The position numbers were made by a program, and so were the translations under genes. Source: Nitrospirota bacterium (GTDB taxonomy: Bacteria; Nitrospirota; Nitrospiria; Nitrospirales; Nitrospiraceae). Taken from it: a stretch of 64,000 nucleotides of DNA. Within the stretch, counting starts at the first letter, position 1, and each line of letters begins with the position of its first letter. This document shows positions 7,948-53,269 of the stretch, in pieces. The stretch covers positions 82,506-146,505 of the forward strand of contig JBFMAX010000009.1 of NCBI GenBank assembly GCA_040755395.1. Reading direction: 5' to 3'. The notes beneath the pieces are model-generated. The model searched no databases and was not told the DNA's origin. It saw only the letters and a list, made by a program, of their open reading frames with translations.

Positions 7948-8101
7948 ATCAGGTTTTCACTCCACACCGGCATTGCCGCGCGAAGCGAGCGGTGGACTAC
8001 CGTGCCGAGCCCTCGCTCCGTAGCCCGACGCGCTACTTAACATAGGCGAAAAAATCGCGTCAAGGTGGGTGCGGGACCCAACGAAGGAGAGGAGCAATGC
8101 A

Positions 8102-18980: not shown

Positions 18981-19116
18981 CGTTGCCTCCCCGACGCTTC
19001 CCGCGCACGGCTTCGGGTCGCCCTTTCTCTTGTGCTCTCAAACGGTTCGCTTGTCTGATCCTGCCGAAACCAGTGTGACCGTTGTTCTACCTCCCCCTCT
19101 CGCCTGAGCGTGATTG

Positions 19117-19144
19117 TTTACCCGGATTTAACAGTTCGGTGACA
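19117..19144 (+). promoter_or_regulatory. PhoB/PhoP box-like triple repeat (site A)
   Basis: TTTACC (19117), TTAACA (19128) and GTGACA (19139) are spaced exactly 11 bases apart. This matches the TTAACA-N5-TTAACA pattern known for Pho-type response regulators. It lies about 90 bases ahead of an operon that contains a PsiE-like gene, a family under phosphate control in E. coli. Confidence 0.55.
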
Positions 19145-19495: not shown

Positions 19496-19879
19496 ATGGT
19501 AACCGTCAGCCAATTGATGACACGGGATCTGGTGACGATCGAAGCCGGCACGTCGGTGGTCGAGGTCGCGAAGTTGATGAAGGACAGGCAGATCGGCAGC
19601 GTGTTCGTCGAGCGGGACGGCGAGATCGTCGGGATCGTGACCGAACCGGACATCGTCCGAAAGGTCGTCGGGGCCGACCGCGGACCGTACTTCATCCCGG
19701 TGGAAGAGATCATGAGCGCGCCGGTGATCGGCATCGACGAGCGCCGTCCGGTGACGGAAGCGGCGGATCTGATGGAACAGCATCGGACCCGTCATCTGGC
19801 GGTCCGGCGAGGCGAGAGAATCGTGGGCGTCTTATCGGTGAGAGATCTCCTGCACCCGGTGTCGATCGATGAATTCTAG
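19496..19879 (+). CDS. tandem CBS-domain protein, 127 aa
   Basis: The whole protein is two CBS domains: the first (VSQLMTRDLVTIEAGTSVVE to VGIVTEPDIVRKVV) and the second (VEEIMSAPVIGIDERRPVTE to VGVLSVRDLLHP). Such stand-alone CBS pairs bind adenine nucleotides and control partner enzymes or channels. AAAGGAGG lies 11 bases ahead of ATG 19496 and only two bases from an in-frame ATG at 19487, so the later start is preferred. It lies between a small membrane protein and a PsiE-like membrane protein in a probable phosphate-controlled operon and may be their nucleotide sensor, an inference from position. Confidence 0.88.
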   Translation: MVTVSQLMTRDLVTIEAGTSVVEVAKLMKDRQIGSVFVERDGEIVGIVTEPDIVRKVVGADRGPYFIPVEEIMSAPVIGIDERRPVTEAADLMEQHRTRHLAVRRGERIVGVLSVRDLLHPVSIDEF

Positions 19880-19907
19880 CGTCGACCGTTCGGCGACGGG
19901 AGAATTC

Positions 19908-20426
19908 ATGGCGAAACCGGACACGGTGTTTCCGGGATTGCACTGGATTCCCGTCGCTCGGTTCTTCCGTGCGGCCGAACGCGTGGCAGAAACCGATCTC
20001 ACGGTCCTCTGGAGAAAAGGCATCCGGCTGGTTCTCAGCCTGTTGATCCTGACCATCTTGGCCGGGCTCGCCGGCGGAGTGGTCAAGACATTCCTCGACC
20101 TCCGTTTGCTGTTCCACGCCGCCGTGGAAGTCGCGCTGCGCCAGGTCATCATCGATACCTTGGTTCTCCTGGCGCTTGTGGAAGTGTTCAAGACCACCTT
20201 CGCCTATTTCTCGGAAGGGCGGGTCAAAGTGACGTTTATCGTGGACACGGTTCTGGTCATGATGCTGACCGAAGTGCTCTCGCAATGGTTCAAAGACGGA
20301 CCGTGGGCGCGCCTCGCGGTGCTGGGCGCCATTCTGCTGACATTGGGGGCGATGCGGGTGGTGGCGGTCCGATACTCGCCCACGCAGGGCGACGCCTCGA
20401 CACGGTCGCACGAGTCGCTGTTTTGA
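19908..20426 (+). CDS. PsiE-like membrane protein, 172 aa
   Basis: Four hydrophobic segments, arranged as in the PsiE (phosphate-starvation-inducible E) family, with the typical long second helix leading into IDTLVLLALVEVFKTTFAYFS and the following VKVTFIVDTVLVMMLTEVL. The N-terminal 30 residues are cytoplasmic. GGGAGAATTC before ATG 19908 is a good site; an earlier ATG at 19869 overlaps the CBS gene. PsiE in E. coli is phosphate-regulated but of unknown function. Pho box A upstream of this operon supports the assignment. Confidence 0.75.
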   Translation: MAKPDTVFPGLHWIPVARFFRAAERVAETDLTVLWRKGIRLVLSLLILTILAGLAGGVVKTFLDLRLLFHAAVEVALRQVIIDTLVLLALVEVFKTTFAYFSEGRVKVTFIVDTVLVMMLTEVLSQWFKDGPWARLAVLGAILLTLGAMRVVAVRYSPTQGDASTRSHESLF

Positions 20427-21157: not shown

Positions 21158-21184
21158 GTGCGGCAACAGCCTGGCTTCGCGGAT

Positions 21185-21212
21185 TTAACGCGGCCTTAAC
21201 ATGACGGTAATC
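21185..21212 (+). promoter_or_regulatory. PhoB/PhoP box-like triple repeat ahead of pstS (site B)
   Basis: TTAACG (21185), TTAACA (21196) and GTAATC (21207) are exactly 11 bases apart. TATTGT at 21233 can serve as -10, with no separate -35, as is usual for PhoB-activated promoters. The start codon of pstS is at 21266. Confidence 0.7.
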
Positions 21213-21265: not shown

Positions 21266-22270
21266 ATGAGCGTAACCGCGGGAAGGATGATTGGTCTCGC
21301 CCTGGTTGGGGGCCTGCTGTGGTGGATGCGCGCGGCGGGCGCCGAACAAGCCGACCTGGTGAGGATCGACGGGTCCAGCACGGTTTTTCCTGTGACCGAG
21401 GCGGTGGCCGAAGAATTTCAAAAGACCAACCGCGGAACCGTGAGAGTGACGGTCGGCATTTCGGGAACGGGCGGCGGATTCAAAAAGTTCTGTCGCGGCG
21501 AAACCGATATCCAGGATGCGTCGCGGCCGATCCTGGCGGATGAAATGGCGGCGTGCCGAAAGAACAACATCCGCTACTCTGAATTGCCCGTCGCTTTCGA
21601 CGCGATCACCATCGTCGTCAGCCGTCAGAACACCTGGGCCGACGCCGTTACGGTGGAGGAACTCAAACGAATGTGGGAACCGTCGGCTCAAGGGCGGGTG
21701 ACGCGATGGCGGCAGATTCGCCCATCGTGGCCGGATGCGCCGCTCAAGTTGTTCGGGGCCGGCGCCGATTCGGGCACGTTCGACTATTTCACCGAGGCCG
21801 TCGTCGGCACAGCCAAAGCCAGCCGGGGCGATTATACGAGCAGCGAGGACGACAACACCCTCGCGCAGGGCGTTGCCAGGGACAGACAGGCCCTCGGGTA
21901 TATTCCTCTGGCGTATTTCGAATTCAGCAGGGACAAACTGAGAGCCGTCGCGGTGGATGCAGGCAACGGTCCGGTCATGCCTTCCCGGGAAACCGTAGAG
22001 AACGGGACGTATCAGCCGTTGTCCCGCCCGATCTTCATCTACGTCAACGCCGACTCGGCCCGCCGGCCCGGCGTGAAACAGTTCGTCGAGTTTTATCTGA
22101 CGAAAGCCTCGACGCTGGTCCCCCAGACGAATTATGTGCCGTTGTCTCCGCAGGACTACCGCCTGGCGCTCGACCATTTTCACAACGGCAAACTCGGGAC
22201 TGCCTTCCAGGGAGGCCGGACGGTGGGAGTCGCCATCCGGGAGCTGCTCCGGCGCGACGCGAAACTTTGA
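21266..22270 (+). CDS. pstS: phosphate ABC transporter substrate-binding protein
   Basis: A signal peptide (cleavage near AGA, residue 26) precedes a PstS-type binding protein: [19 protein letters not shown] at the front with the Ser/Thr that bind phosphate, [19 protein letters not shown] with the second phosphate loop, and [15 protein letters not shown] as the third. It captures phosphate in the periplasm for PstCAB. It is the first gene of the canonical pstSCAB-phoU order and has its own Pho box. The ribosome site is weak (GGGT region), which may reflect use of a different start in the same signal region. Confidence 0.95.
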
Positions 22271-22299
22271 ACCGGCCGGCACGCGCATCCGCCTGATCG

Positions 22300-23229
22300 A
22301 TGAAGACCGAAGGCCCGGAACCACGTTTCCAACCTGTCCGTTCGGCCGGTATCCTCCGACGACCAGGGGAGCGGGCCATCGAGGCAATGCTTCTGGCGGC
22401 GGCGCTTGCCTCGGTCGCGATCACCTTGGGCATCGTGGGAGTCCTCTTGTATGAATCGGCGGCGTTCTTTCGGCAGGTTGCGCCGTTGGAGTTTTTCACC
22501 GACACCCAGTGGACCCCCCTCTTTTCCGAGCCCCGCTACGGCATCGCGCCGCTCGTGTGCGGAACCGTCGTGACCACCGCGGTTGCGCTGGCGGTCGCCG
22601 TTCCGGCGGGGACCATCGTCGCCGTCTATCTGAGCGAGTACGCCTCTCCCCTGCTGCGGGAAATCGTCAAACCGGTAATGGAATTGTTGAGCGCCGTTCC
22701 GACGGTGGTCTACGGGTACTTCGCGCTGTTGTTCGTGACCCCTCTGTTGCAGCGCGTATGGCCGGAACTTCCCGGGTTCAACATGTTGAGCGCAGGGCTG
22801 GTCATCGGCGTCATGATCATTCCCTATGTCAGTTCGGTGAGTGAGGACGCCATGCGCGCCGTGCCGCTTTCTCTTCGGGAGGGGTCGTATGCGCTGGGGG
22901 CGACCCGCATGCAAACCGCCGTGCGCGTGGTCGTCCCGTGCGCGCTGTCTGGGATGGCGGCCGCCTATGTCCTGGCCGTTTCCCGTGCGATCGGCGAAAC
23001 GATGGTGGTGGCGATCGCCGCCGGCATGCAACCCACGTTGACCTGGAATCCGCTGGAGCCGGCCGCCACGCTCACGGCCTATATCGTCCAGGTGAGCCTC
23101 GGCGATCTGCCCCATGGAAGCATCGGCTACCGGACGATTTTCGCGGCCGGCCTCGTGTTGTTTTTGATGACCCTGGCGTTCAACATCGCCGGCCACGTCT
23201 TGCGCAAGCGTCTTTACCAGGCCTACTGA
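22300..23229 (+). CDS. pstC: phosphate ABC transporter permease PstC
   Basis: The 309-residue protein has six hydrophobic segments and the permease coupling loop ([25 protein letters not shown]), where the EAA-type motif ends in GATR and contacts PstB. The N-terminal 25 residues are cytoplasmic and Arg-rich. It forms the inner-membrane channel with PstA. It lies 29 bases after pstS. No odd features. Confidence 0.95.
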
Positions 23230-23249
23230 CGGCCTGACGCTCCTCGGCA

Positions 23250-24137
23250 ATGATGTCACGTCAACTCCGGGAAGGGTTGTTCGCGGTCGCGGGGCTCCTG
23301 ACCATGTTGGTCGCCCTGTTCGCGCTGGGCGCCCTCCTGGCGGGGCTGGCCATGGACGGGTGGGACCGCTTGTCCTGGCGCTTCTTTGCTTCCTATCCCT
23401 CGCGCTTTCCCGAACAGGCCGGCATTCTGGCCGCCTGGGTGGGCACCGTGCTCGTGATGGTCGTCACCGCGTTCGCCGCCGTTCCCTTGGGACTCGCCGC
23501 AGCCGTGTATCTGGAAGAATACGCGCCCACGCACTGGCTGACGGACCTTATCGATATCAACGTCGCGAATCTGGCCGGCGTGCCCTCCATCGTGTACGGG
23601 CTGATGGCACTGGGCCTCTTTGTGTACCGGTTCGGCCTCGGTCACAGCGTTCTGACCGCGGGACTCACGCTGGCGTTGCTCATATTGCCGATGGTGATCA
23701 TCGCGACGCGGGAAGCGATCCGCAGCGTACCGGACGGGGTGCGCGAAGCCGCCTACGCCCTCGGCGCGACCAAGTGGCAGACGGTGAAGGACCACGTCGT
23801 CCCCTACTCGATGGGAGGCATTCTTACGGGCATCATTCTCGCGCTTTCGCGCGCGATCGGCGAGACGGCGCCGCTGATCACGGTCGGCGCGTTGTCGTTC
23901 ATCGCGTTCTTGCCGCATCCTCCCTGGCAAGCGGAATTTCCGTTTGTCTCGTTCCAGTGGCTGCTGGATCCGTTCACGGTCCTTCCCATGCAGATGTTCA
24001 ACTGGGTGTCCAGGCCCCAGGAGGAATTTCATCGCAATGCGGCGGGGGCCGGGCTGGTCCTGATGGCGATGACGCTGGCCATGAACGCCCTGGCGATCTA
24101 CGTCCGCGCGCGGTTTCGCAAGCGAATCCGCTGGTGA
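23250..24137 (+). CDS. pstA: phosphate ABC transporter permease PstA
   Basis: At 295 residues with six predicted helices this is the PstA partner. The coupling loop [22 protein letters not shown] parallels that of PstC. The front half has the long periplasmic region around [20 protein letters not shown] typical of PstA, and [19 protein letters not shown] matches the conserved membrane helix. It follows pstC by 20 bases and precedes pstB by eight, within the same operon. Confidence 0.95.
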
Positions 24138-24145
24138 GCAGGACC

Positions 24146-24925
24146 ATGACGACGATGGACGCACCGGCGGTCAAAGCGGAGGTCAGGAACCTGAATTTCT
24201 ATTACGGCTCGATTCAGGCCCTCAAGCAGCTCACGCTGACCATCGCCGAGCGCCGAGTGACCGCGTTGATCGGACCGTCCGGATGCGGAAAAACGACGTA
24301 TCTGCGATGCTTCAACAGGATGCACGATCTCTATTCCGGCAACCGCTACGAAGGGGAAATCGTCCTCTACCCCGACAAAACCAATATCCTGGACCCACGC
24401 CTCGATCCGATCGAAGTCCGCATGCGCGTGGGCATGGTTTTTCAGAAGCCCAATCCGTTTCCTAAGTCCATTTACGAAAACGTGGCCTACGGCCTCAGAA
24501 TTCGCGGCCGCCAGCGCAGAAGCGCGATCGACGACGCCGTTGAACGGGCGCTCCGCGACGCCGCCCTGTGGCAGGAGGTCAAAGATCGGCTGCATGAACC
24601 CGCCTTCGCCCTGTCGGGCGGTCAACAGCAACGGCTGTGCATCGCCCGCGCCCTCGCGACGGATCCGGAAATGCTGCTGTTCGACGAGCCGACCTCGGCC
24701 TTGGATCCCACCGCGACGGTCAAGATCGAAGAGTTGGTGAATCAACTCAAGCAAAAGATTACGATCGTGATCGTCACTCACAGCATGCAACAGGCCGCCC
24801 GGGTCTCGGACTTTACCGCCTTCATGTACGCGGGATCGCTCGTGGAGTTCGACAAGACCGAGAAGATGTTCACTAATCCGTCGAATCAACTGACGGAGGA
24901 TTACATTACCGGACGGTTCGGCTGA
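24146..24925 (+). CDS. pstB: phosphate ABC transporter ATP-binding protein
   Basis: A 259-residue ABC ATPase that powers phosphate import. Walker A is GPSGCGKTT (residues 43-51), the Q-loop lies in [17 protein letters not shown], the signature is [15 protein letters not shown] and Walker B is [13 protein letters not shown], followed by the H-loop [11 protein letters not shown]. The FNRMHDLY and KPNPFP patterns identify PstB among ABC proteins. ATG 24146 has AGGA just upstream; an in-frame ATG at 24155 is the alternative. Confidence 0.96.
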
Positions 24926-24963
24926 ACGCATCACGTTTCACGTATGACGCGTCCCGAGGACTG

Positions 24964-25650
24964 ATGCATCGTCATTTCGACGAAGAACTGTTGGGCCTTA
25001 AGGAGAAGCTGCTCCTGATGGGCGGACTGGTGGAGAGCCAAATCCAGGGGGCGCTGCGCGCGCTCACCGAACGCGATGACGGACTGGCCCGTCGCGTGAT
25101 CGAGACCGATCATCGCGTCAACGCCTTGGATGTCGAGGTGGACGAAGACTGCCTTCGGCTGCTCGCGTTGCAGCAACCGGCGGGACGCGATTTGCGGTTC
25201 ATCACCACGGCGATGAAGATTTCCACCGAACTGGAACGCATGAGCGACCTGGCCGAAAACGTATCCGAGCGGGCGCTGGAACTCAATGAAGAACCTCAAC
25301 TCAAGCCCTACATCGACATTCCCCGCATGGCGAACTGGGCGATACGGATGGTGAAAGACAGCCTGGACGCCTTCGTCAACCGCGATGCGGCGCTGGCGAG
25401 AAAGGTGATCGGAGACGACGATTTCGTCGACGATTTAACCGAGCAGTTGTTTCGCGAGTTGCTCTCGTTTATGTTGGAAAACCCGAAGACGATCACGAGA
25501 GCCATCCGCCTGACCTTCATCGGCAAATACTTCGAGCGGATCGCCGACCATGCGACCAACATCGCGGAACTCGTCGTGTATATGGTAGAAGGGAAGATCA
25601 TTCGTCACACCGAACCGTCGAACAAACAGCCGATGGCCGACAGCGAGTAG
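24964..25650 (+). CDS. phoU: phosphate regulatory protein PhoU
   Basis: The 228-residue all-helical protein has the PhoU double three-helix layout with metal-site motifs: DVEVDEDCLRLLALQQPAGRDLRF in the first repeat and FVDDLTEQLFRELLSF with FIGKYFERIADHATNIAE in the second. PhoU links the Pst transporter to the phosphate sensor and prevents phosphate over-uptake. It closes the pst operon. No PhoR-like sensor kinase is found in the window, so the partner it talks to is elsewhere or absent. Confidence 0.95.
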   Translation: MHRHFDEELLGLKEKLLLMGGLVESQIQGALRALTERDDGLARRVIETDHRVNALDVEVDEDCLRLLALQQPAGRDLRFITTAMKISTELERMSDLAENVSERALELNEEPQLKPYIDIPRMANWAIRMVKDSLDAFVNRDAALARKVIGDDDFVDDLTEQLFRELLSFMLENPKTITRAIRLTFIGKYFERIADHATNIAELVVYMVEGKIIRHTEPSNKQPMADSE

Positions 25651-25698: not shown

Positions 25699-27252
25699 AT
25701 GACCAAACTCGCCATTCTCGATATCGGCACCAACTCCATTCATTTGGTCCTGGCCGAGGTCGGCCCCGATCTTTCGTACAAAATTGTGGATCGCTTCAAG
25801 GACATGACGCGGCTGGGCGACGGCTCGTTCGCCAGCCGCCGGCTCTCGGACCAAGCGATGGCCCGGGGGTTCGAAGTGGTCCGCAACCTGGTGACGCTCG
25901 CCCGTAACAAAGGGTACGACCGGATCGAGGCGATCGCCACCAGCGCGGTACGCGAAGCCCGCAACGGCGGCGAGTTCATCGAAGGCGTGGCGAAACAGAC
26001 GGGCCTGACGGTGCGGGTCATCAGCGGCGCCGAAGAAGCCCGCCTCATTTTCCTCGGCGTGCGCCACAGCATCGCTTTGTCGGACCGGCCGACCTTGGTG
26101 GTGGACGTCGGAGGCGGCTCCGTCGAGTTGATGGTCGGCAACCGAGAGGCCATGCTGCACGCCAGGAGCCTCAAGCTCGGCGCCATCCGGATGAAGGATC
26201 TGTATCTCACGCGCACGCCGCCGTCGAAAGCCATGTTGCGGGACATGCACGCGGCGATCGAGCGACACTTGAAAGCCGCGTTGCAGGGGTTTCAGACCGT
26301 GCAGTACGACGGCCTGGTGGCCACCTCCGGCATGGCCGGCAACCTGACGGAGGTGATTTATCTGCGACGCACGGGCCATCCCCCTCCTCAACTGCATCTC
26401 GCCGCAGTCTCCTTGAAGGAAGTGCAGGAGGTGGAAGCGGTGCTGGCCGCCTCGAGCGTCAAGGCGCGGCTCGCCATCCCCGGTCTCGATCCCAGACGCG
26501 TGGATACGTTGTTGCCAGCTGCGGCGGTCCTGCGGATCCTCATGGAGCTCGTCGGAAAGGACGATCTGACCATTTCCGACAAGGCGATCCGGGAGGGCAT
26601 GATTTACGATTTCATCGAGCGCCATCGGGAGGGCCTCCGCGCCGAACTGGAGATCCCGGATGTCCGCAGGAGAAACGTCGTCCATCTGGCGCGCCGCTGC
26701 CAGGCGCCGGAAACCCATTCTCTGCATGTCGCCGCGCTGGCGTTGCAGTTGTTCGATCAGACCAAACCGATGCACGGGTTCGGGCAGCCGGAGCGGGAGT
26801 GGCTGGAATACGCCGCGCTGCTGCACGACGTCGGCTACCTCATCAACTCCCGGCAACATCACAAGCACGCCTATTACCTGATCAAGCACAGCGACCTGTC
26901 CGGGTTGACGGCAGAAGAGGTGGACATCGTCGCCAACGTCGCGCGCTATCATCGCCGGGCGTTGCCGAGTCCGAAGCACGCGCCCTTGGCGGCCTTGCCG
27001 GCCGGCCATCAGCGGACGGTCCAGGTGCTGGCGGCGTTGCTCCGGATCGCCGATGCGCTCGACCGCACCCATTTTTCCGTGATTCAACGGCTGACGGTGA
27101 AGCTGGGGGCGATCGTGACGATCTCGCTTCAGACCGCCGGCGACGCCGAGTTGGAAACCTGGGCCGCCCGCGGGCGCGCGGACCTGTTTGAGAAGGTCTT
27201 CCGGAGGCGGGTACAATTCATCATGCTGTCACCGGAGGGAGACCCGGCATGA
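25699..27252 (+). CDS. Ppx/GppA-family phosphatase with HD domain, 517 aa
   Basis: The N-terminal 300 residues have the sugar-kinase-type fold of exopolyphosphatase/pppGpp phosphohydrolase: LAILDIGTNSIHLVLAEV, AIATSAVREARNG and VVDVGGGSVELMV. The C-terminal part has an HD-type helical domain (ALLHDVGYLINSRQHHKHAYYL). These enzymes remove terminal phosphate from polyphosphate or convert pppGpp to ppGpp in the cytoplasm. It starts about 50 bases after phoU and overlaps the next gene by four bases, so it links the pst operon to the thymidylate-kinase-like pair. Confidence 0.92.
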   Translation: MTKLAILDIGTNSIHLVLAEVGPDLSYKIVDRFKDMTRLGDGSFASRRLSDQAMARGFEVVRNLVTLARNKGYDRIEAIATSAVREARNGGEFIEGVAKQTGLTVRVISGAEEARLIFLGVRHSIALSDRPTLVVDVGGGSVELMVGNREAMLHARSLKLGAIRMKDLYLTRTPPSKAMLRDMHAAIERHLKAALQGFQTVQYDGLVATSGMAGNLTEVIYLRRTGHPPPQLHLAAVSLKEVQEVEAVLAASSVKARLAIPGLDPRRVDTLLPAAAVLRILMELVGKDDLTISDKAIREGMIYDFIERHREGLRAELEIPDVRRRNVVHLARRCQAPETHSLHVAALALQLFDQTKPMHGFGQPEREWLEYAALLHDVGYLINSRQHHKHAYYLIKHSDLSGLTAEEVDIVANVARYHRRALPSPKHAPLAALPAGHQRTVQVLAALLRIADALDRTHFSVIQRLTVKLGAIVTISLQTAGDAELETWAARGRADLFEKVFRRRVQFIMLSPEGDPA

Positions 27253-27998
27253 CCGGTCCATCATCGGCCGGGGATGCGCCGCATCCCTATCCCGGCAAGT
27301 TGATCATCGTCGAAGGCATCGACGGATCGGGCAAGAGCACCCAGTTGCTGCTGCTGCAGAAATGGCTGGAGTCGCAGGGCCACAAGGTGTTCTTCACCGA
27401 ATGGAATTCCTCCGAATTGGTCCGCGAGACCACCAAGCGGGGGAAAAAGAACAAGACCCTGACCCCGACGACGTTCAGCCTGCTGCACGCGACGGACTTC
27501 GCCAGCCGCCTCTATCACGAGATCCTGCCGCCGTTGAAGGCCGGCATGCTGGTGCTGGCCGACCGGTATATGTACACGGCCTTCGCGCGCGACGTCGTGC
27601 GCGGCGTCTCGCCGGCCTGGGTGCGAAAGCTCTACAGCTTCGCCGTCCGTCCGGACATGGCGTTCTATTTCAAGGTGCCGATCGACGTGGCGATCGACCG
27701 GCTGCTGAGAGGCACCCGGGCGCAGTTGAAGTATTACGAAGCCGGCATGGACATGGGGCTGAGCCAGGACGTCGCCGAAAGTTTCCGGATTTTTCAGTCC
27801 AGAATCCTGGCGGAATACGACAAGATCGTGGAAGAGTTCGGGCTCATCACGATGGACGCCACCAAGGAGATCGAAACGCAGCAGAACGAGATGCGCCGGA
27901 TGGTCGCGAAGGCGTTGGAGCACTACAAGCCGCGAAGGGGCACCCATGGGAGACGCTCGCTATTTTGGCGACGGTTTGACGTACCTAAATCCGAGTGA
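27249..27998 (+). CDS. thymidylate-kinase-like protein 1, 249 aa
   Basis: This P-loop kinase of the dTMP kinase superfamily has Walker A GIDGSGKST with Lys29, and the ADRYMYTAFARD segment where dTMP kinases have DRY. The LLxATDFASRLYHE helix and the C-terminal region rich in aromatic and acidic residues differ from housekeeping Tmk. The start overlaps the Ppx/GppA stop by four bases, and the gene overlaps the next one by 53 bases, so the three are tightly coupled. Its substrate may be a nucleotide or, from context, something linked to polyphosphate. That is inference. Confidence 0.82.
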   Translation: MTGPSSAGDAPHPYPGKLIIVEGIDGSGKSTQLLLLQKWLESQGHKVFFTEWNSSELVRETTKRGKKNKTLTPTTFSLLHATDFASRLYHEILPPLKAGMLVLADRYMYTAFARDVVRGVSPAWVRKLYSFAVRPDMAFYFKVPIDVAIDRLLRGTRAQLKYYEAGMDMGLSQDVAESFRIFQSRILAEYDKIVEEFGLITMDATKEIETQQNEMRRMVAKALEHYKPRRGTHGRRSLFWRRFDVPKSE

Positions 27999-28689
27999 TT
28001 TGAAAGGAAAGCTGATCGCCATCGAAGGCACCGACGGCGTCGGTCGGTCGACCCACATCGAGTCGTTGCAGGAATGGCTGGAAGTGCAGGGCTACGGCGT
28101 GGTCACCACCGGCTGGACGCGGTCGAATCTCATGTCCAAAACGATCGAGATGGCCAAGCAGGGCAACATTCTCGACCGGTGGTCGTTCAGCCTTCTCTAC
28201 GCGACGGATTTCGCCGACCGCCTGGAACATGAAATCATCCCGGCCCTGCGCTCGGGCTTCGTCGTCCTGGCCGATCGGTATATTTACACGGCGTTCGCCC
28301 GGGATACGGTCCGCAGCGGCGACCGCCGATGGATCAGGGACGTGTTCGGGTTCGCGCTCGTGCCGGACCTCGTCTGCTATTTGCGGATCGACGTGGACAC
28401 CCTGGCGTTGAGGGTGATCGAGAGCAAAGGGATGAACTACTGGGAATCCGGGATGGATTTGAAATTGGGCGCCGATCTGTACGACAGCTTCAAAAAGTAC
28501 CAGGCGTTGCTGATCGAGGAATTCGACAAGATGGCCGAGGAGTTCGGATTCGAGGTGATCGACGCCCGTAAGCCCCCGGAGGAGATCCAGGAGGAGTTGC
28601 GGGCTAAAATCCAGCCGCTCTTGACCGGCGACGGCCGCGCGCTCCGCCGGCCCGCCCCCCCGCTTGGCGAGGTCCTGCCTCCCGCCTGA
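27946..28689 (+). CDS. thymidylate-kinase-like protein 2 with altered P-loop, 247 aa
   Basis: A clear paralogue of the preceding gene: GKLIAIEGTDGVGRST and ADRYIYTAFARDTVRSG match its partner's GKLIIVEGIDGSGKST and ADRYMYTAFARDVVRG. The catalytic P-loop Lys is replaced by Arg34, which usually cripples phosphate transfer, so this copy may be a non-catalytic subunit of a heterodimer (dTMP kinases are dimers). The C-terminus is Pro-rich and likely disordered. ATG 27946 follows AAGGGG; it lies inside the previous gene. Its stop abuts that of sixA on the other strand. Confidence 0.8.
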   Translation: MGDARYFGDGLTYLNPSDLKGKLIAIEGTDGVGRSTHIESLQEWLEVQGYGVVTTGWTRSNLMSKTIEMAKQGNILDRWSFSLLYATDFADRLEHEIIPALRSGFVVLADRYIYTAFARDTVRSGDRRWIRDVFGFALVPDLVCYLRIDVDTLALRVIESKGMNYWESGMDLKLGADLYDSFKKYQALLIEEFDKMAEEFGFEVIDARKPPEEIQEELRAKIQPLLTGDGRALRRPAPPLGEVLPPA

Positions 28690-29193
28690 TCAGGCCTTGC
28701 GCAGGGCGCGGAGCAGCCCTGGCCCCAACCACCATTGCAGGTATCCTCTGCCGGGCTTTGGAATCCCGTCGAAATGAATGAGGCAGGCGCCCGCCTTTTT
28801 GAGCGAAAGACAGGCCGCCGGCTCGCCGAAAAGCATGATCCCGGCGGTCTCGCTCAGATGGGGCTCGTGTCCGACACAGATCACACACGCATCCGCGGGA
28901 AAGGATTCCAGCAACGGGAACAATTTGTCGGGAGCGGCCCCCGGCAGCAGTTCGTCGCACAGACGAATCTCATCCTTCAACCGGAACGCCTCGTGAAGCA
29001 GTTTGGCGGTGTCATGCGCCCGTACGAACGGGCTCGACAGCAGATGGAAGGGGACAAGATCCAACCGCATCAGGCCGGAGGCCGCCTGCCGCGTCCGTGT
29101 CCGGCCCTTGTCGGTGAGGGGGCGGTCCGCGTCCCGTCCGGACCATTCCGTACGCTCCACCGCGATCCCATGACGAAAGAGCACACAATCCAT
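28690..29193 (-). CDS. sixA: SixA-type phosphohistidine phosphatase
   Basis: The 167-residue protein is a short histidine-phosphatase: catalytic VLFRHGIAV with RHG at the front, the second His in VGHEPHLSE, and the Arg in SSPFVRAHDTAKLL. SixA removes phosphate from phosphohistidine on signalling or PTS-type proteins in the cytoplasm. It is convergent with the second kinase-like gene, the two stop codons touching, and divergent from the CHAD gene. SixA, Ppx/GppA and CHAD genes are often neighbours in polyphosphate clusters, which supports a linked role. Confidence 0.92.
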   Translation of the reverse strand: MDCVLFRHGIAVERTEWSGRDADRPLTDKGRTRTRQAASGLMRLDLVPFHLLSSPFVRAHDTAKLLHEAFRLKDEIRLCDELLPGAAPDKLFPLLESFPADACVICVGHEPHLSETAGIMLFGEPAACLSLKKAGACLIHFDGIPKPGRGYLQWWLGPGLLRALRKA

Positions 29194-29202
29194 GAGGACA
29201 CC

Positions 29203-29221
29203 TAGCCCCTGGAGGGGGCTA
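29203..29221. promoter_or_regulatory. short stem-loop between sixA and the CHAD gene
   Basis: TAGCCCC (29203-29209) pairs with GGGGCTA (29215-29221) over a five-base loop. It sits upstream of both the minus-strand sixA gene and the plus-strand CHAD gene, so it could be an operator; there is no T-run. Low confidence. Confidence 0.2.
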
Positions 29222-29312
29222 CTCTACCACATCGACACAGTGGACTAAAACCATCCCGGCGTGCCTTGAAGCCTTGCGGGAGGCTTTGTTACAGTCATGG
29301 TCCCGTCACGTG

Positions 29313-30143
29313 AACCGATCGAATGCGAGCGTGGCCGTGCCGTCCCTCTCCGTCGATACCCAGGCAGCCAAGTACCAGTCGATCGTCCTTCAGGCACTGG
29401 CCGGACTGTCGGATGGAGATCGGCGTCCTGAAACCCTTCATCGCGTCAGGGTCCATTTGAGGCGACTGCAGGCCCATCTCGAGCTCGCAGGGAAGGACGA
29501 GAGCGCCGCGGTTCTGTCCCGATGTGTGTCCCGCCTCAGCCGGCTGAGAACCTTGCACGTGTTCGCCGGGTACCTCGTCCGGATCGGCGCCCCCAAGTCG
29601 GATCGCGATGCGGTTCAAGAATTGGTCGAGCTGACGTCTGCGAAGCTCCTGGAAAAGAACGTCTATGACAAGATGGAACGTGTTGTCTGGAGACATGCCT
29701 TGCCGGCGGAACCGACCAATGCCGGCTGGTTGGACAAGCGATTCGCAGCCTTGGCCCAACTCCACATGACGGTATTGGAGGAGCTTCTCGCGACGGCGTC
29801 CAAGAAGCCGCGCCGGAAACGTCTTCACGCGCTCCGCCTGCGGATCAAGTCGATCCGCTATCAGGAGGAGTGGGCTCCCGGCCGGGACCCGGCGAAAACC
29901 CGTTTCCTCGGCCGGCTGAAGGATGTGCAGACCATCCTGGGCAAGTACGAAGAGCTGGCCGAGTTCAAGAAACTGGGAGAAAAGCTCAAGCTGGAGTCGA
30001 AGCCCCGGATCGTCAAGGACTGGCGTCGAGCCCGGAAACGAGCACGGGCCGTACCGGACCGGCTCGGCTGGCTGCTGAAACGGTTGGCCATGAGGCGATG
30101 CGCCACCGAGGTTCAAGCCGCCGGCGCCGGAATGGCCGGATGA
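29313..30143 (+). CDS. CHAD-domain protein
   Basis: A basic, helical protein of about 276 residues. The CHAD hallmarks are LHRVRVHLRRLQAHLEL near the front and KRLHALRLRIKSIRYQEEW in the second half, both of the HxxRxxxRRxR type. CHAD proteins bind polyphosphate through these basic helices. The tail is very Lys/Arg-rich (WRRARKRARAVPDR). The start is uncertain: a GTG at 29313, a TTG at 29274 or a later GTG, none with a strong ribosome site. Position next to sixA and the Ppx/GppA-kinase set fits a polyphosphate-binding role. Confidence 0.82.
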   Translation, partial: NRSNASVAVPSLSVDTQAAKYQSIVLQALAGLSDGDRRPETLHRVRVHLRRLQAHLELAGKDESAAVLSRCVSRLSRLRTLHVFAGYLVRIGAPKSDRDAVQELVELTSAKLLEKNVYDKMERVVWRHALPAEPTNAGWLDKRFAALAQLHMTVLEELLATASKKPRRKRLHALRLRIKSIRYQEEWAPGRDPAKTRFLGRLKDVQTILGKYEELAEFKKLGEKLKLESKPRIVKDWRRARKRARAVPDRLGWLLKRLAMRRCATEVQAAGAGMAG

Positions 30144-30687: not shown

Positions 30688-31377
30688 CTAACCGGCCCGC
30701 AGTTTGTACCCCAGCCCCCTCACGGTGACGATGCATTGCGGGCGGGAGGGGTTCGCCTCGATCTTCTGGCGAAGCGCATGGATGTGCACGTCGAGGGCAT
30801 GCGCTTCCAAGGCGTAGCCCGGCCCCCACACGAGATCCAACATCTCCTGCCGCGAAAAAACCCGGCTCGGCGATTCGAGAAAGCATTGCAAGATCTGAAA
30901 TTCCTTCGGAGTGAGATCGATCTGCCGGCCCCGCACGGTGACTTCATGTCTCTCGAGATCCATGCTGATGTCGCCGATCCTCAGCACTGCGGGCGATTCC
31001 CGGCTGACTTGCTGTCTTCGAAGGATCGCCCTGATCCGGGCAACGAGTTGCGCCGGGCTCTGGCCGCACACCGTATCGTCCATTCCCAGATTGAGATCTT
31101 CGATACAGTCCTCTTCGAGGCACGCAGAGGATTGCGGCTGGAACGCGATCAGGGGGACGCCGCGGGGAATGAGGCTCTGGCGCACGTCCTGGTACCACGG
31201 AAACTGGCGATCGACGATGATCAAAAGGGGATCCTTTTCCTGGATCTCGGCCAGGACGGCGGTTTTGTGCGCGGCGACCACGACTCGATAGCCTGACTCG
31301 GCCAACCGCTGGCTCAGCGACTGCGCCAATGAGTCGCTGGCAGTCACGAGCAGAATCGGCGATTTTCCGCCGGCCAT
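30688..31377 (-). CDS. PhoB/OmpR-type response regulator with degenerate receiver, 229 aa
   Basis: The C-terminal 100 residues are a normal OmpR-type winged helix (VRGRQIDLTPKEFQILQCF, SRVFSRQEMLDLVWGPGY, DVHIHALRQKIE, TVRGLGYKL), so it binds direct repeats. The receiver is abnormal. The acidic pair after strand 1 is Thr12-Ala13 (ILLVTASDS), the invariant Lys is Gly105 (DDTVCGQSP), while the phospho-acceptor-like Asp56 remains in LIIVDRQFP. It may not be phosphorylated. TGAGGCGAAC precedes ATG 31377. A Pho-like box lies about 60 bases upstream, suggesting it controls its own gene. No sensor kinase lies beside it. Confidence 0.85.
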   Translation of the reverse strand: MAGGKSPILLVTASDSLAQSLSQRLAESGYRVVVAAHKTAVLAEIQEKDPLLIIVDRQFPWYQDVRQSLIPRGVPLIAFQPQSSACLEEDCIEDLNLGMDDTVCGQSPAQLVARIRAILRRQQVSRESPAVLRIGDISMDLERHEVTVRGRQIDLTPKEFQILQCFLESPSRVFSRQEMLDLVWGPGYALEAHALDVHIHALRQKIEANPSRPQCIVTVRGLGYKLRAG

Positions 31378-31434: not shown

Positions 31435-31462
31435 GTTAACCGGAAGTTAAGAAATCGTAAAC
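31435..31462 (-). promoter_or_regulatory. PhoB/PhoP box-like triple repeat ahead of the regulator (site C)
   Basis: Read on the minus strand, three hexamers related to TTAACA start at 11-base steps; on the plus strand they are GTTAAC (31435), GTTAAG (31446) and GTAAAC (31457). They lie 58 bases upstream of the regulator start codon, fitting autoregulation. Confidence 0.6.
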
Positions 31463-31659
31463 TATGCAGAAATGCGCGCGGGGCTGGAGGCCCTGGGCTA
31501 GAGATCGGAGTCTCTTCCCCCTCGCCCCGAGCTCCTTGCCTCTCGCCCAGCCTTGACTTTCATGATGCGTGGGTGGGCCGAAGGCTCATGAAGACGGTGA
31601 GAAGATTGTGGGCGCTGTCCCGGGTCGGCTGTGTGCAGGAGGACGCGCCTGATCGAGGT

Positions 31660-31698
31660 GTAACACATCTTTAACGCGATCGATACGGCGTTGAAACA
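31660..31698 (+). promoter_or_regulatory. PhoB/PhoP box-like quadruple repeat (site D)
   Basis: GTAACA (31660), TTAACG (31671), GATACG (31682) and GAAACA (31693) follow at exact 11-base steps, weakening toward the gene. They precede the second pstS-like gene (ATG 31837) with a leader of roughly 120 bases. Confidence 0.6.
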
Positions 31699-31836: not shown

Positions 31837-32880
31837 ATGTGCATCCGAATGACCGTTCGGGCGCTCGGGTGTTTTGCCGCGTGGGCCGCACTGGCCTGTT
31901 GGATCGCAGTTCCCTGTCAGGCCCAACTCAAACCGGAGCTGGACCTGAAGATTCCTCCGTACACGCCGGCGAGCGCCGTGTCGGGATCGCTGGTCGTGGC
32001 CGGTTCCGAGACCATGCGCCCCTTCACGCAAGGTTGGGCCAACGAACTAGGAAGGCTCTACCCGGGCGTGACGATCAAGGTTGAGGGACTGGGTTCCGAG
32101 ACCGGACCCGTGAAGCTCCTGGAACGGAAAGCCGAGATCGCCGCCATGTCGCGGCGGATGACGACCCAGGAGATCGCCGACTTCATGCAGGAGTTCGGGT
32201 ACGAGCCGACGGAAGTCCCCGTCGGGGTCGACGCGCTCGCCGTTTTCGTCCATCGGGAGAATCCGATCGCCGGGATCACGCTGCAGGAGCTTGACGCAAT
32301 CTTCTGCTTCGAAAGACGCCGCGGGATCAAGTACCCTATCGACTCGTGGGGCTTGCTCGGCCTCCACGAAGATTGGTTTGACGCGCCGATCCGTAGCTAC
32401 GGCCGCGACGGACTGTCGGGGACCGCGGCATTTTTCAAAGAACAGGTATGTGACGGCGCCGAGCTGAAGCCCGGTATGATCAAGAGTCCCGGCTCGGCGT
32501 CCGTCGTGATGGACGTGAGCAAAGACCGGCTGGGGATCGGATTCAGCGGCATCGGGTATCGCACCTCCGGCGTGCGGCCTGTGCCCTTGGCCAACGCGAA
32601 GGGCGGCCGCTATGTGGAACCGACGTTCCAGACGGCCATCGACGGAACGTATCCGTTACGGCGGAACTTTTATCTGTACGTCAACAAGCCGCCGAAAGCG
32701 GCGCCCTCTCCTCTGGTCGCCGAATTCGTGAAGTTCGCGCTCAGCCGGCAAGGGCAGGAGCTCGTGATCAAGACGGGCTACTTTCCGCTGACCACGAGCG
32801 AGATCGCCCGCCTGCTCGCGTTCTGGTCCGTTCCCGTCAACGCCGCGTCCGCCGCGCGAACGCCGAGTCCACGAAACTGA
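31837..32880 (+). CDS. second PstS-family phosphate-binding protein, 347 aa
   Basis: A signal peptide with Cys/Ala-rich core (ALACWIAVPCQAQ) leads into a PstS-like fold: VVAGSETMRPFTQGWANEL (first phosphate loop), VEGLGSETGPVKLLERKAEI (second) and SYGRDGLSGTAAFFKEQV (third). It differs from the first PstS, being closer to the PBP-like type with ETM in place of STV. The region has a Cys pair (FCFERR, VCDGAE). GGGAGCGTGAG precedes the ATG. It shares a Pho-like box and lies ahead of an unknown lipoprotein gene; it may be a high-affinity or alternative phosphate receptor. Confidence 0.88.
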   Translation: MCIRMTVRALGCFAAWAALACWIAVPCQAQLKPELDLKIPPYTPASAVSGSLVVAGSETMRPFTQGWANELGRLYPGVTIKVEGLGSETGPVKLLERKAEIAAMSRRMTTQEIADFMQEFGYEPTEVPVGVDALAVFVHRENPIAGITLQELDAIFCFERRRGIKYPIDSWGLLGLHEDWFDAPIRSYGRDGLSGTAAFFKEQVCDGAELKPGMIKSPGSASVVMDVSKDRLGIGFSGIGYRTSGVRPVPLANAKGGRYVEPTFQTAIDGTYPLRRNFYLYVNKPPKAAPSPLVAEFVKFALSRQGQELVIKTGYFPLTTSEIARLLAFWSVPVNAASAARTPSPRN

Positions 32881-32981
32881 ACCCGGCTGGACACAGCTTG
32901 TCGAACACGCCATCATCGGAACGACCGTTCCCGGGAGTGGAGCAAAACAACGTGTCAGGGCGACGGTCTCGACGGTGCTGC

Positions 32982-33704
32982 ATGCGGCCGAAAATCACGG
33001 TGTGGGTGAGCTTGTGCATCATCGCCGGCGCGGCGGGGTGCGGAACGCCGCAATTTCCCACCAAGGTGGTGTACGAGAGCGACCAGTCGTTCGTTCGGCT
33101 CGAAACCGATCAAACGGTCGCACAGGGGAATGAACACAGCCACCCGGTTTCGGTCTCCGCCGAGCAGATGGCCGCGGTCCTCGGCGGCGTCGTCGTGGAA
33201 GCACCCGTCTCCCGGATGCCCTTCTACGACGACCTGAGCCGACCGCGCCGGCATCCGGCGTTTACCGACACCGAGATCGAGTTTTTCGCCCCATTGTTGG
33301 CCGACGCGTTACAGATGGCGACGCCCGAGGAAGTGGTGACTTTTTATCAGACACGTCGGGTCTCGGCGATCCGGCGGGAGGTGACGTCCGGAGGGTTGTT
33401 TGTGAAGGGCGATCGACTCCATCTGTTCCTCAGCAATTATCGCTCGAAGACCCACTATCGAGCCGATATCGGAGTCGCCGATACGACGGATGACAGGCTC
33501 ACGCCCATGAAACCGATCGCACCGCAGGAAGGCAAACTGGATTTCGAACCGCAACACTATCGGGTGCCGTCCGCTCCCGCAGGACTGGCCCGGCTCTTTC
33601 ATTGGGACCGGCGCGAGCTCATCGTGCTCTTCCGCCAGCTTCCTCCGAGGCGCCTCTCGTCGGGGGCCGCTCCCCGTTCCGGGGACGTCTTGCCCCGGAA
33701 GTGA
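32982..33704 (+). CDS. lipoprotein of unknown function, 240 aa
   Basis: Starting at ATG 32982, the signal (ITVWVSLCIIAGAAGC) ends in a plausible lipobox with the Cys at about residue 20. The mature chain is beta-rich with many Tyr/Phe/Arg (FYDDLSRPRRHPAFTDTEIEFFAPLLADAL), and a YRSKTHYRADIG segment in the second half. A frame reading from a TTG at 32898 is less likely. The gene lies between a PstS-like and an OprP-like gene and may be an accessory of phosphate uptake across the outer membrane; that is inference from position only. Confidence 0.65.
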   Translation: MRPKITVWVSLCIIAGAAGCGTPQFPTKVVYESDQSFVRLETDQTVAQGNEHSHPVSVSAEQMAAVLGGVVVEAPVSRMPFYDDLSRPRRHPAFTDTEIEFFAPLLADALQMATPEEVVTFYQTRRVSAIRREVTSGGLFVKGDRLHLFLSNYRSKTHYRADIGVADTTDDRLTPMKPIAPQEGKLDFEPQHYRVPSAPAGLARLFHWDRRELIVLFRQLPPRRLSSGAAPRSGDVLPRK

Positions 33705-33736: not shown

Positions 33737-35158
33737 TCAGAAATTCCACTGCAACTGGAACCTGAGCAGATTGCCGGTCTGGAGTTGATACGGGGTCTGC
33801 ACGCAGGGGATGTTCGTGAAGAGCGGGTTGACGCAGGTGGAAGGAACGGCGCCGGCGTCCGCCGACGTGCGTTGCGTCCAGGTATACATGACGGTCAACT
33901 CGACGGCCCTGTTGAACTGATACTCCAGTCCGAGCTCGAGTTCACGGACCGAGTTGCGCGGCGAGTTCGGCTCGTGTTTCTTCCCGCCGAAGTATTCCTG
34001 GTAGCGCACGAACGGAAAAATGCTCAGGCAGTAGGTTTCGCACCGGTAGTTGTAAAAGAGCTGCAGGTAGCCGCCGCGCAAATCGCCCGTCACCACGTCG
34101 GTGCGGGCTTTGTTCAATTCGGGTCCCCGCCCGACGGTGTATTCGCCCTGAAGGCCGAACGGCTGCGGGTACAAGACGAAGTGCCACGCGACTCGTTCAT
34201 CCACGTAGTTGCCGTTGTTGGTGACGCGAGGCGAAGCCGGGGTCCCCGCCGTCAGCGACGGGTTGAGCGGCACGACCGGCGCCGTGTCCACGACGAACTG
34301 TCCGGTGTAGGCGTCCATGCCCACCTCGAAGATCTGACCGTTGGGGAATTCGTGCGGATACATGAAGTGAAACACGACGTGCTTGTTGTCGTTTCGTTCG
34401 GATTTGTTGGCGGTCTGCCCGTTGTACACCCCGATGCCCAGCATCCCGTAATCGCCGGACCCTTTCAACCCGCTGTCGACCAGCCGGCGAAAGCGCTCGC
34501 GGACGGAGGTCGGCGCGTAGTAGAGGAACAAGCCGAGATCGCGTTCGTTGAACGCGGCGCTGTTGATCGCGTCGTTGCGGTCGAACGCCAGACGGTTCTG
34601 GCTGGACTGCATGTTCTCGAACCCGAACGGCACCTTGGACTGGCCGGCCCTGATGCGCCACTCCTTGTTCTCCGTGAGAAAGAGATCCGCGTACCAATCC
34701 CGCAATTGCCCGACGTTGTTCGACCCGTCCACGGACGATGCGAAATCCGGCTGAATGTACACGAACACGCGGTCGTGCGGTTGCCCGCTGATGATCACGC
34801 GGCCGCGTCTCAGGAAGAACGTGTTGGATTTTCCGATCGACTTATCGCCCTGCTCGTTGATAAGCAACTCGTTGTTGAGGGTATGGTTGTAGCGTAATTG
34901 GCTGTATCCGCGGATGCTGATTCTTTCATACCACTTCTCGCGGACCGGCGCGTCGCCGACGCCCCGACTCTCTTCCAAAGCTTTGGCCTCCCGCTTCTCT
35001 TCCTCCGCCTTCAACTGCACCCATTCATCGATCGTAATCTGTTTTTTTTCGAGCAGGAGATCCTCGAGTTGCCCCGCCAGAACCCGGTCGCCGACCCACG
35101 CCGTTCCCAAACAGGCCACGCAGAACAGCGCCAGCCCGCACGATACCCCCCCTCTCAT
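33737..35158 (-). CDS. OprP/OprO-type phosphate-selective porin, 473 aa
   Basis: A signal peptide (SCGLALFCVACLGTAW) is followed by a short coiled helix (ITIDEWVQLKAEEEKREAKA) of the kind that precedes OprP barrels. The barrel then begins with YSQLRYNHTLNNE and has the loop pattern VRRGRVIISGQ-like FFLRRGRVIISGQPHDRVFVYIQPDF, typical of the OprO/OprP family, ending in RFQLQWNF (C-terminal Phe for barrel insertion). It is a 16-strand outer-membrane channel for phosphate or polyphosphate. A Pho-like box lies upstream on the same strand, supporting the substrate. Confidence 0.85.
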   Translation of the reverse strand: MRGGVSCGLALFCVACLGTAWVGDRVLAGQLEDLLLEKKQITIDEWVQLKAEEEKREAKALEESRGVGDAPVREKWYERISIRGYSQLRYNHTLNNELLINEQGDKSIGKSNTFFLRRGRVIISGQPHDRVFVYIQPDFASSVDGSNNVGQLRDWYADLFLTENKEWRIRAGQSKVPFGFENMQSSQNRLAFDRNDAINSAAFNERDLGLFLYYAPTSVRERFRRLVDSGLKGSGDYGMLGIGVYNGQTANKSERNDNKHVVFHFMYPHEFPNGQIFEVGMDAYTGQFVVDTAPVVPLNPSLTAGTPASPRVTNNGNYVDERVAWHFVLYPQPFGLQGEYTVGRGPELNKARTDVVTGDLRGGYLQLFYNYRCETYCLSIFPFVRYQEYFGGKKHEPNSPRNSVRELELGLEYQFNRAVELTVMYTWTQRTSADAGAVPSTCVNPLFTNIPCVQTPYQLQTGNLLRFQLQWNF

Positions 35159-49040: not shown

Positions 49041-50979
49041 CGATCAACCGCCGAAGTCGCGCGAGCGCGGCCCCCGGCACCCATCGCCGACTTCCGTCGT
49101 GATCCGCCCGGACCACCGTGACGAACTCATGGGGCAACGGCCCTTCGTAACGGCAGCGCACCGTCGCGATGGGCACCTTGACCCCGTACGCCGGAGACCT
49201 CCAGCCGGACGGCGGATCGGTTTCTCCGCGGTGCCATGACACCGCTCCACCCGTGACGTCGATTCGGACGGCCGTCGCCCCGGACCGGAGCACGGACGAG
49301 CCGGCCTCCACAAAGGGATCGGCCCCCAGATGCCAGTTCGCATCGAGCCGATGGACGCCGCGCCCCGTCAGCCGATCCAGAATCACCCAGCGGCTCGGCG
49401 GTTGGTACAGCAGCGCCCGCCAGTGCAGGACGCCGAGCCGTTTCAGATAGCCGTCATGGCTCGCCACGAGCGCGACGCTTCCGTCCGGATTTGTGTCCCG
49501 ATGCGCGAGCCGGGTATAAAACGGCTGCGTCCACAAGAAGGCGGCTTCCTGGACGGCTTGATCCAGTCCGTCCACCGTCACGGTGTTGTGAGCGCTGGTT
49601 CCGCGGAAGTACCTCCTCCACGAAGGCTCGCCGGTGTATGTGTAAGTTCCCGGATCGATCAGGACTTCCAGGTCGTCGATGTCCAACAGGACCGAGAGCG
49701 CGTCGGCGTGGCCGTGCGCGTAGCAGGGGGCCATCCCGAGCGGCCCGTGGTCGAAGATCAGGCGCGAGCGGGCGCCGTCCGCCCGCGTGACGACTGTATA
49801 GCCCGAGGACCTGAACGTGGACGTCGCGGGTACCGGCGCCGGCTCTCCACGGGGAAACCGCAGAAACGGGGACAGCGCGTAGCCGTCGTCGCCGTCGCCG
49901 ATCGCCGGCCAACGTTCAGCCGGCCAACCGAACGCGGCGTCGAACGCCTGACTGCGCGCCACGGCCCGCTCCAGCGCCGCAGGCACGGGCCGGTTTCTCT
50001 GTCTGAGCAGGGCCACGACGAGTCGGTACAGGTCCGAGACCACCCGCTGATACCGGAATCCCTGCTCCGCGCCGCCGCCGTCGTCGAGGATCTGGTGGGA
50101 AGCTTCGTGCTCCAGCAACCGGAGTCCGGCGGCCGACCAGCCTCCATCGCCTTGCAGCTCCGGAAACAGGATACCGGCGTACACGAGCCCGGCCGCCTCC
50201 GCGACGGTATGGTTCCCGAGAGACGAACCGATGGACAGCCGGCGTCGGATGAATTCGGCGTGCCCGCGGATCAGACCTGTCACAACGGGCCACGTTCCCT
50301 CGGGATCGCTCAACCAGGGCCGGGCGATGTCGATCGCGTGACACACGGCCAAGAGACGGAGCGCGCATTCCATCGCCGAAATGTAATGAATGCCGGTGAG
50401 AAACGGGTTGGCCTTGCGCCATGACCGGAGCCGGGCTTCCAGCGACTGAACGGCGCGGCGGCGCAGGCTCGCTTCAGCCGTTCGTGAGATCAACGCCAGC
50501 GCAATCAGATGCTGAAGCCGCGCGGGCTCCCATGCAACGCGCACGTCCCCGTACGGATTGCCTTCGCGATACGGAATGCTCGCGAAGAACGTATTCGGCC
50601 AGAGCCTGCCGGTGTCCGGCGCCCGGCGCCAGATGTCCGGATCCTCACTCCATGCCCACTCATGGCCGAGCGCGCGGAAACGCCCCTCCACCAACCCCTC
50701 CGCCGAGTCCGCGAGGGCGTCGAGCGCCCAGGGCAACTCCGGCAATTGCGGTGTCGAGGCAACGCAAAACGCCAGGCGGCCGGCATCGCGGACCGGAGCG
50801 TCCGCCGTCAGCCACCCGAAGCGATGGCCGACCTGCCAGGCCTTCAGCGCGCACTGCTCGCCCGCCCGACTAATCAGTTCGGCGGGACTCATCACGCTCG
50901 CGCGCCTGGCGTACCAGGCCAGTGTCCGGGAGACACGGAAGGAATGAAACGGCATCGTTCCGGCGGCGTCAGACGTCAT
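49021..50979 (-). CDS. heparinase II/III-type polysaccharide lyase, 652 aa
   Basis: An N-terminal alpha/alpha-toroid (LARWY-type regions SLGNHTVAEAAGLVYAG with the catalytic Asn/His) is followed by a beta-sheet C-terminal half with HGHADALSVLLDIDDLEVL, IDPGTYTYTG and GTSAHNTVTVDG, the heparinase-III pattern. No signal peptide is visible, so the cell location is open. Such lyases are common in exosortase loci and may trim or process the polymer. GGGAG precedes ATG 50979, which overlaps the oxidoreductase gene by 11 bases. Confidence 0.88.
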   Translation of the reverse strand: MTSDAAGTMPFHSFRVSRTLAWYARRASVMSPAELISRAGEQCALKAWQVGHRFGWLTADAPVRDAGRLAFCVASTPQLPELPWALDALADSAEGLVEGRFRALGHEWAWSEDPDIWRRAPDTGRLWPNTFFASIPYREGNPYGDVRVAWEPARLQHLIALALISRTAEASLRRRAVQSLEARLRSWRKANPFLTGIHYISAMECALRLLAVCHAIDIARPWLSDPEGTWPVVTGLIRGHAEFIRRRLSIGSSLGNHTVAEAAGLVYAGILFPELQGDGGWSAAGLRLLEHEASHQILDDGGGAEQGFRYQRVVSDLYRLVVALLRQRNRPVPAALERAVARSQAFDAAFGWPAERWPAIGDGDDGYALSPFLRFPRGEPAPVPATSTFRSSGYTVVTRADGARSRLIFDHGPLGMAPCYAHGHADALSVLLDIDDLEVLIDPGTYTYTGEPSWRRYFRGTSAHNTVTVDGLDQAVQEAAFLWTQPFYTRLAHRDTNPDGSVALVASHDGYLKRLGVLHWRALLYQPPSRWVILDRLTGRGVHRLDANWHLGADPFVEAGSSVLRSGATAVRIDVTGGAVSWHRGETDPPSGWRSPAYGVKVPIATVRCRYEGPLPHEFVTVVRADHDGSRRWVPGAALARLRRLIDEAGAY

Positions 50980-53241: not shown

Positions 53242-53269
53242 GTTAAGCCTTGATTAAGGATGTGTTAAA
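53242..53269 (-). promoter_or_regulatory. PhoB/PhoP box-like triple repeat in the exopolysaccharide locus (site E)
   Basis: On the plus strand GTTAAG (53242), ATTAAG (53253) and GTTAAA (53264) are spaced by exactly 11 bases; on the minus strand they are TTAAC-like, beginning with TTAACA, and point at the oxidoreductase gene. The array overlaps the last codon of asnB. Confidence 0.5.

Follow-up and report, generated by a model that had tools for sequence, protein, structure and literature searches.

The stretch of Nitrospirota DNA analyzed here, 64,000 nucleotides in length and hereafter called the window, carries a gene for a PhoB-like regulator at 30688..31377, a 229-amino-acid open reading frame of the OmpR/PhoB type with an ATG start. 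These coordinates had been given correctly by the first-pass annotation, and the gene lies on the minus strand. It stands in a phosphate and polyphosphate island. A pstS-pstC-pstA-pstB-phoU operon occupies 21266..25650 on the plus strand and is followed at 25699..30143 by a polyphosphate-type neighborhood of ppx/gppA, two thymidylate-kinase-like genes, a SixA-like phosphatase, and a CHAD protein; the two thymidylate-kinase-like genes (27249-28689, between the ppx/phoU and the SixA/CHAD genes) are adjacent and overlap. Divergent from the regulator gene, pstS2 (31837..32880, plus strand) encodes an orphan PstS-like phosphate-binding protein (PF12849), which scored 192.8 bits against TIGR02136, under the cut-off of 206.6. 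Beyond it lie a gene for a predicted lipoprotein (32898..33704, plus strand), for which no Pfam or NCBIfam match was found, and one for a Porin_O_P family porin (33737..35158, minus strand; PF07396, E 2e-30). This pstS2-lipoprotein-porin block is conserved and accompanies the regulator in most ortholog loci, and the synteny, together with the island context, supports the proposed tie of the regulator to phosphate genes. In another genome, a regulator just 25% identical to that of the window (L061:12274-12996) adjoins a pstS-lipoprotein-porin block.

Neither a HisKA domain nor any kinase match was found in the 64-kb window, and no kinase turned up near the orthologs when the PhoR kinase region served as a BLAST query, except at one distant-paralog locus. 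The initial remark that no PhoR-type kinase lies near was thus borne out in the window and in the ortholog neighborhoods tested.

The C-terminal half of the regulator (residues ~132-228) matched the winged-helix OmpR/PhoB DNA-binding domain in a Pfam search (PF00486, E 6.8e-27), as expected from the earlier description of this half as intact, and the same Trans_reg_C domain was present in all 28 regulator homologs tested. The N-terminal half was delimited as a pseudo-receiver domain (residues ~7-121; 31015..31359, minus strand) by alignment with PhoB and homologs and by the (beta-alpha)5 topology of an AlphaFold2 model. This model, built with 28 sequences (mean pLDDT 85.5, pTM 0.53), has the strand order of a five-strand receiver followed by a winged helix, the domain order that places the protein among the OmpR/PhoB transcription regulators. 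Both fold and sequence searches returned OmpR-family regulators, the top PDB sequence match being RegX3 (2oqr). The protein falls outside the PhoB equivalog of NCBIfam (TIGR02154), with 140.9 bits vs a cut-off of 296.2, a cut-off that the canonical PhoB of the same genome, at 237.2 bits, does not reach either.

Alignment with E. coli PhoB placed T12, A13, D56, and G105 of the regulator at E9, D10, D53, and K105, which confirmed the residues from which a degenerate receiver had been proposed. In the same alignment, the switch Thr is replaced by Q80 and the beta5 Tyr by T102, and alpha3 is ~six residues shorter. From the canonical receiver set (acidic pair, phospho-Asp, Thr/Ser, Lys), the Asp alone is retained. 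The homolog alignment showed the acidic pair, Thr, Tyr, and Lys to be lost throughout the regulator family, with no Lys at position 105 in any of 48 non-redundant homologs. Position 56 is D in 41 of them, E in 6, and G in 1, so that the regulator and most of its homologs do not belong to the aspartate-less receiver class. All E56 sequences form a single clade in the tree, and two members of this clade (L045 and L054) retain the Pho-box-like arrays described below and the pstS-porin block. The domain is a pseudo-receiver in the sense of Bourret et al. 2025, yet it scored 19.6 bits against PF00072, the family from which the dataset of that paper was built, and so stays below the cut-off of 30.2. 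None of 28 family members came near this cut-off, a weak match being found in 6, and the receiver is therefore missed by Pfam's own cut-off. The family-wide loss of the acidic pair, Thr, and Lys, along with a whole clade carrying Glu in place of D56, supports the claim that the receiver lacks what normal Asp phosphotransfer requires, and switching of this receiver by Asp phosphorylation appears very unlikely.

Of 118 genomes in this family, 50 contained relatives of the regulator, a few of the matches being distant paralogs. Among the best 49 named loci, nearly all carry the label Nitrospira, Nitrospiraceae, or Nitrospirae/Nitrospirota, and N. moscoviensis and Ca. N. defluvii are among the organisms carrying homologs; two loci with other taxon labels are probably mislabelled bins. 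Judged by these sequence comparisons, the regulator is a Nitrospira-family trait and a lineage-specific PhoB paralog. Mean pairwise identity among the 48 non-redundant homologs is 38% for the receiver vs 69% for the DNA-binding domain, and dN/dS is 0.05-0.30 vs 0.01-0.13, indicating purifying selection on both. Since the receiver is under purifying selection, it is not decaying, and a decaying pseudogene was ruled out by the dN/dS values and the conserved length. The near-invariant receiver residues of the family are D56, R57, D100, and R109. Other genomes of the family contain relatives (L063:6969-8549, L064:7243-8565, L065:7599-9065, and L069:7749-9173) in which, by eye, the degenerate receiver and the DNA-binding domain are preceded by a secreted segment at the N-terminus and a hydrophobic anchor of the PEP-CTERM-like kind, a topology that looks ToxR/CadC-like. 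Contig C17 of the genome encodes a 105-amino-acid OmpR-type DNA-binding domain without any receiver (L007:4370-4685). Among the papers listed in literature searches that combined Nitrospira with response regulators, PhoB, or the pho regulon, none was recognized by its title as dealing with this regulator.

A canonical PhoB was present in all 32 genomes tested, including the window's own, where it lies on another contig with a PhoR-type kinase gene after it, a pair that the first-pass annotation had missed. This kinase scored above the PnpS cut-off, and a genome without any PhoR was thereby ruled out. The first-pass annotation had allowed that its reading would be overturned by another full PhoB-PhoR pair that alone controlled these genes; the genome search that it proposed did find a full pair, which is half of this condition, sole control by the pair being the other half. 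The canonical phoBR genes showed no Pho box, and thus no sign of PhoB autoregulation. In the genomes G015, G046, G041, G001, G027, and G032, a further canonical PhoB, with 71-75% identity to the PhoB of the window's genome, lies ~2-13 kb from the regulator.

The promoter of the regulator, 58 bp before its ATG, carries a three-repeat array, GTTAAC-N5-GTTAAG-N5-GTAAAC, with 11-bp repeats (31435..31462, score 20.4 with a position weight matrix (PWM) trained on other genomes only). With the same matrix, Pho-box-like arrays were found on the plus strand upstream of pstSCAB-phoU (21184..21211, PWM 23.1) and ahead of a short ORF and the genes for a CBS-domain and a PsiE-like protein (19869-20426), these two proteins being named from reading the sequence and not from a family match (19116..19143, PWM 25.1). 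A weaker array precedes pstS2 (31659..31686, plus strand, PWM 9.9), and its counterpart is strong in many ortholog loci, where the divergent promoters bear 11-bp-repeat arrays of GTTAAC/TGTAAC units. Outside the phosphate island, an array of 18.6 bits lies at 53242-53269, ~120 bp upstream of a minus-strand gene (50969-53119). At a threshold of >=9 bits, with both strands and overlapping registers counted, the window gave 16 matches vs 2 in the reversed sequence. The PWM scan covered the window and individual loci, and the genome was covered by a one-mismatch pattern search, which returned 11 matches vs 13 in the backwards control, so that by itself the pattern shows no genome-wide enrichment. 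The notable feature is the clustering of matches in the phosphate island, along with one before a third pstS-like gene. This gene (L078:1501-2748, contig C17) has its array ~105-130 bp upstream and is followed by a lipoprotein-like ORF.

Of 14 family genomes classed as lacking the regulator by a strict-cut-off protein search, 13 have the same box starting 51-119 bp ahead of the pstS frame of the pst operon, and the box also lies near pstS in most genomes that have the regulator. The first-pass annotation had spoken of a regulator with its own box: the box is real, but that it is the regulator's own is not supported, as the regulator-less genomes carry it at pstS, and the own-box reading as proof of autoregulation was ruled out on these grounds. 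Because the same box precedes pstS in those 13 genomes, canonical PhoB is its likeliest reader. The array is most likely the general Pho box of this lineage, which would make the regulator gene a target of PhoB.

The regulator retains the residues W184, G185, and E191 of the sigma-contact (transactivation) loop. Its recognition helix, nearly invariant within the family, lacks Arg201, the position being Ser or Ala in all 48 homologs. In the PhoB-DNA complex, Arg201 reads a guanine (PMC3973317), and binding of the regulator to the same box is therefore uncertain; its real targets may differ.

Taken together, the regulator is probably a PhoB-induced accessory regulator that would act independently of phosphorylation as a second tier within the Pho regulon. 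Under phosphate limitation, the canonical PhoR-PhoB pair would be activated, and PhoB~P would bind the boxes at the regulator gene, at pstSCAB-phoU, at the CBS/PsiE-like genes, and at pstS2-lipoprotein-porin; the boxes are present at these sites, and it is their reading by PhoB that this scheme presumes. The regulator would then be made when phosphate is short, through PhoB~P at its promoter, and, with its loop residues kept, it would probably activate or compete at these promoters or at close relatives of them. The synteny points to the promoters of the adjacent pstS2-lipoprotein-porin block as its likeliest targets. Its dimerization through an altered alpha4-beta5-alpha5 face might be constitutive and set by expression level, although the input might instead come from pairing with PhoB or from the thiols of C86, C91, and C104, metal-bound or oxidized. 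The earlier interpretation that such a protein would need another input, for example protein contact or a ligand, is thus partly supported: the receiver's loss of normal phosphotransfer residues, the lack of a kinase found near the orthologs tested, and the tie to phosphate genes are supported, and the own box is not.

The three cysteines, which the first-pass annotation had missed, are encoded at 31066..31122 on the minus strand and were placed by alignments, tree, and AlphaFold2 topology in the beta4-alpha4 loop (C86), in alpha4 (C91), and at the end of beta5 (C104), a topology from which the three thiols would lie near each other in space. Each is present in 32-37 of the 48 homologs and all three together in 26, so that no thiol switch can be indispensable throughout the family. 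The linker holds no conserved Cys in the alignment, and the conserved Cys being in the receiver, the protein is not of the RitR type of redox sensor with its single linker Cys. As(III) can be bound by three thiols, and the window has, at 8069-8452, an ORF that by eye resembles ArsC; no arsenic cluster was seen beside the regulator gene, and an arsenic link of these thiols would be speculation.

It is conceivable, though we doubt it, that this PhoB paralog swapped its phospho-switch for the three-cysteine site on the alpha4-beta5 dimer face. At the beta4-alpha4-beta5 edge, the site would bind a metal (or arsenite) or form a disulfide and so control the alpha4-beta5-alpha5 dimer, and metal binding or thiol oxidation would, in place of a kinase, gate a branch of the phosphate regulon; if true, phosphate uptake in Nitrospira would be tied to redox or metal state. 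By parsimony, both C91 and C104 arose on the stem of the family and were lost later in some lineages. Their absences are associated (Fisher p 1e-5, a test that ignores relatedness), they share 3 loss branches (hypergeometric P 0.0009), and all 5 C104 losses are confined to lineages without C91. C91 also occupies the position of PhoB Arg91 on the alpha4 dimer face, C104 directly precedes the position of the lost Lys, and thiol control is known in the OmpR-family regulators RitR (PMC5965902), RpaB, and ManR (PMC4361706). However, at least one Cys is missing in 22 of the 48 homologs, and the branch statistics come from parsimony on a single FastTree tree. A similarly tentative case can be made for a constitutively active or purely expression-controlled regulator whose pseudo-receiver is a mere scaffold, the activity tracking the protein level that PhoB brings about. 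The Pho box at the promoter and the faster evolution of the receiver would fit, as would the model set out for CmrT under CmrR (PMC12632262), but specific near-invariant residues in a receiver under purifying selection would not be expected of a scaffold.

Somewhat less plausible is a heterodimer partner or antagonist of canonical PhoB, which would pair with PhoB receivers or occupy Pho boxes without phosphate input. PhoB is always co-resident, BldM-WhiI offers a precedent (PMC12632262), and the alpha5 dimer-face residues are largely retained (E110 in 41, A113 in 48, R114 in 32, and R121 in 48 of the 48 homologs). However, with Arg91 mostly replaced by Cys and position 101, Asp in PhoB, mostly Leu, the dimer face is altered, and the recognition helix is unlike that of PhoB. 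We regard it as improbable that the protein is an ordinary but inefficient response regulator whose D56 receives its phosphoryl group from a distant or promiscuous kinase: the Asp is kept in most homologs, the genome has 39 HisKA matches, and some Asp-retaining pseudo-receivers may undergo inefficient phosphorylation (PMC12632262), but the whole family has lost the acidic pair, Thr, Tyr, and Lys, an E56 clade exists, and no kinase was found in the ortholog neighborhoods.

Compared with known systems, the regulator shares with canonical PhoB (TIGR02154) and RegX3 the OmpR/PhoB domain order, the phosphate-gene context, and W184/G185/E191, but differs from them in its score of 140.9 bits, the lost catalytic set of its receiver, the changed helix positions 193, 200, and 201, and the lack of any cognate kinase in its vicinity. 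RitR of Streptococcus pneumoniae, structures of which were among the fold-search matches, is likewise an OmpR-family protein with an unphosphorylated receiver and a cysteine link, but it has a single linker Cys128 and no phospho-Asp (PMC5965902), where the regulator has three receiver Cys and mostly keeps the Asp. Actinomycete GlnR, also matched in the fold search through its M. tuberculosis member, is an orphan of the OmpR/PhoB type that keeps the Asp but, going by the title of a reference in PMC12632262, is believed to function without a phosphoryl group on it; it serves the nitrogen regulon. C. difficile CmrT is atypical as well and is linked to a normal two-component system that may induce it (PMC12632262); it lies in an operon with that system, whereas in the present genome the PhoB-PhoR pair has its genes on a different contig and the connection is through the Pho box. 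The on/off mechanisms of bacterial pseudo-receivers remain a mystery according to a 2025 review (PMC12632262), and this family, with its specific new residue set, genomic context, mapped promoter box, and natural variants without the cysteines or the Asp, makes a testable case, while suggesting a second regulatory layer in Nitrospira phosphate control. Pseudo-receiver regulators of the OmpR family are already known in GlnR, RitR, ChxR, and CmrT; what is new, as read from the genomes, is a three-cysteine family that scores below the receiver profile and is embedded in the predicted Pho regulon.
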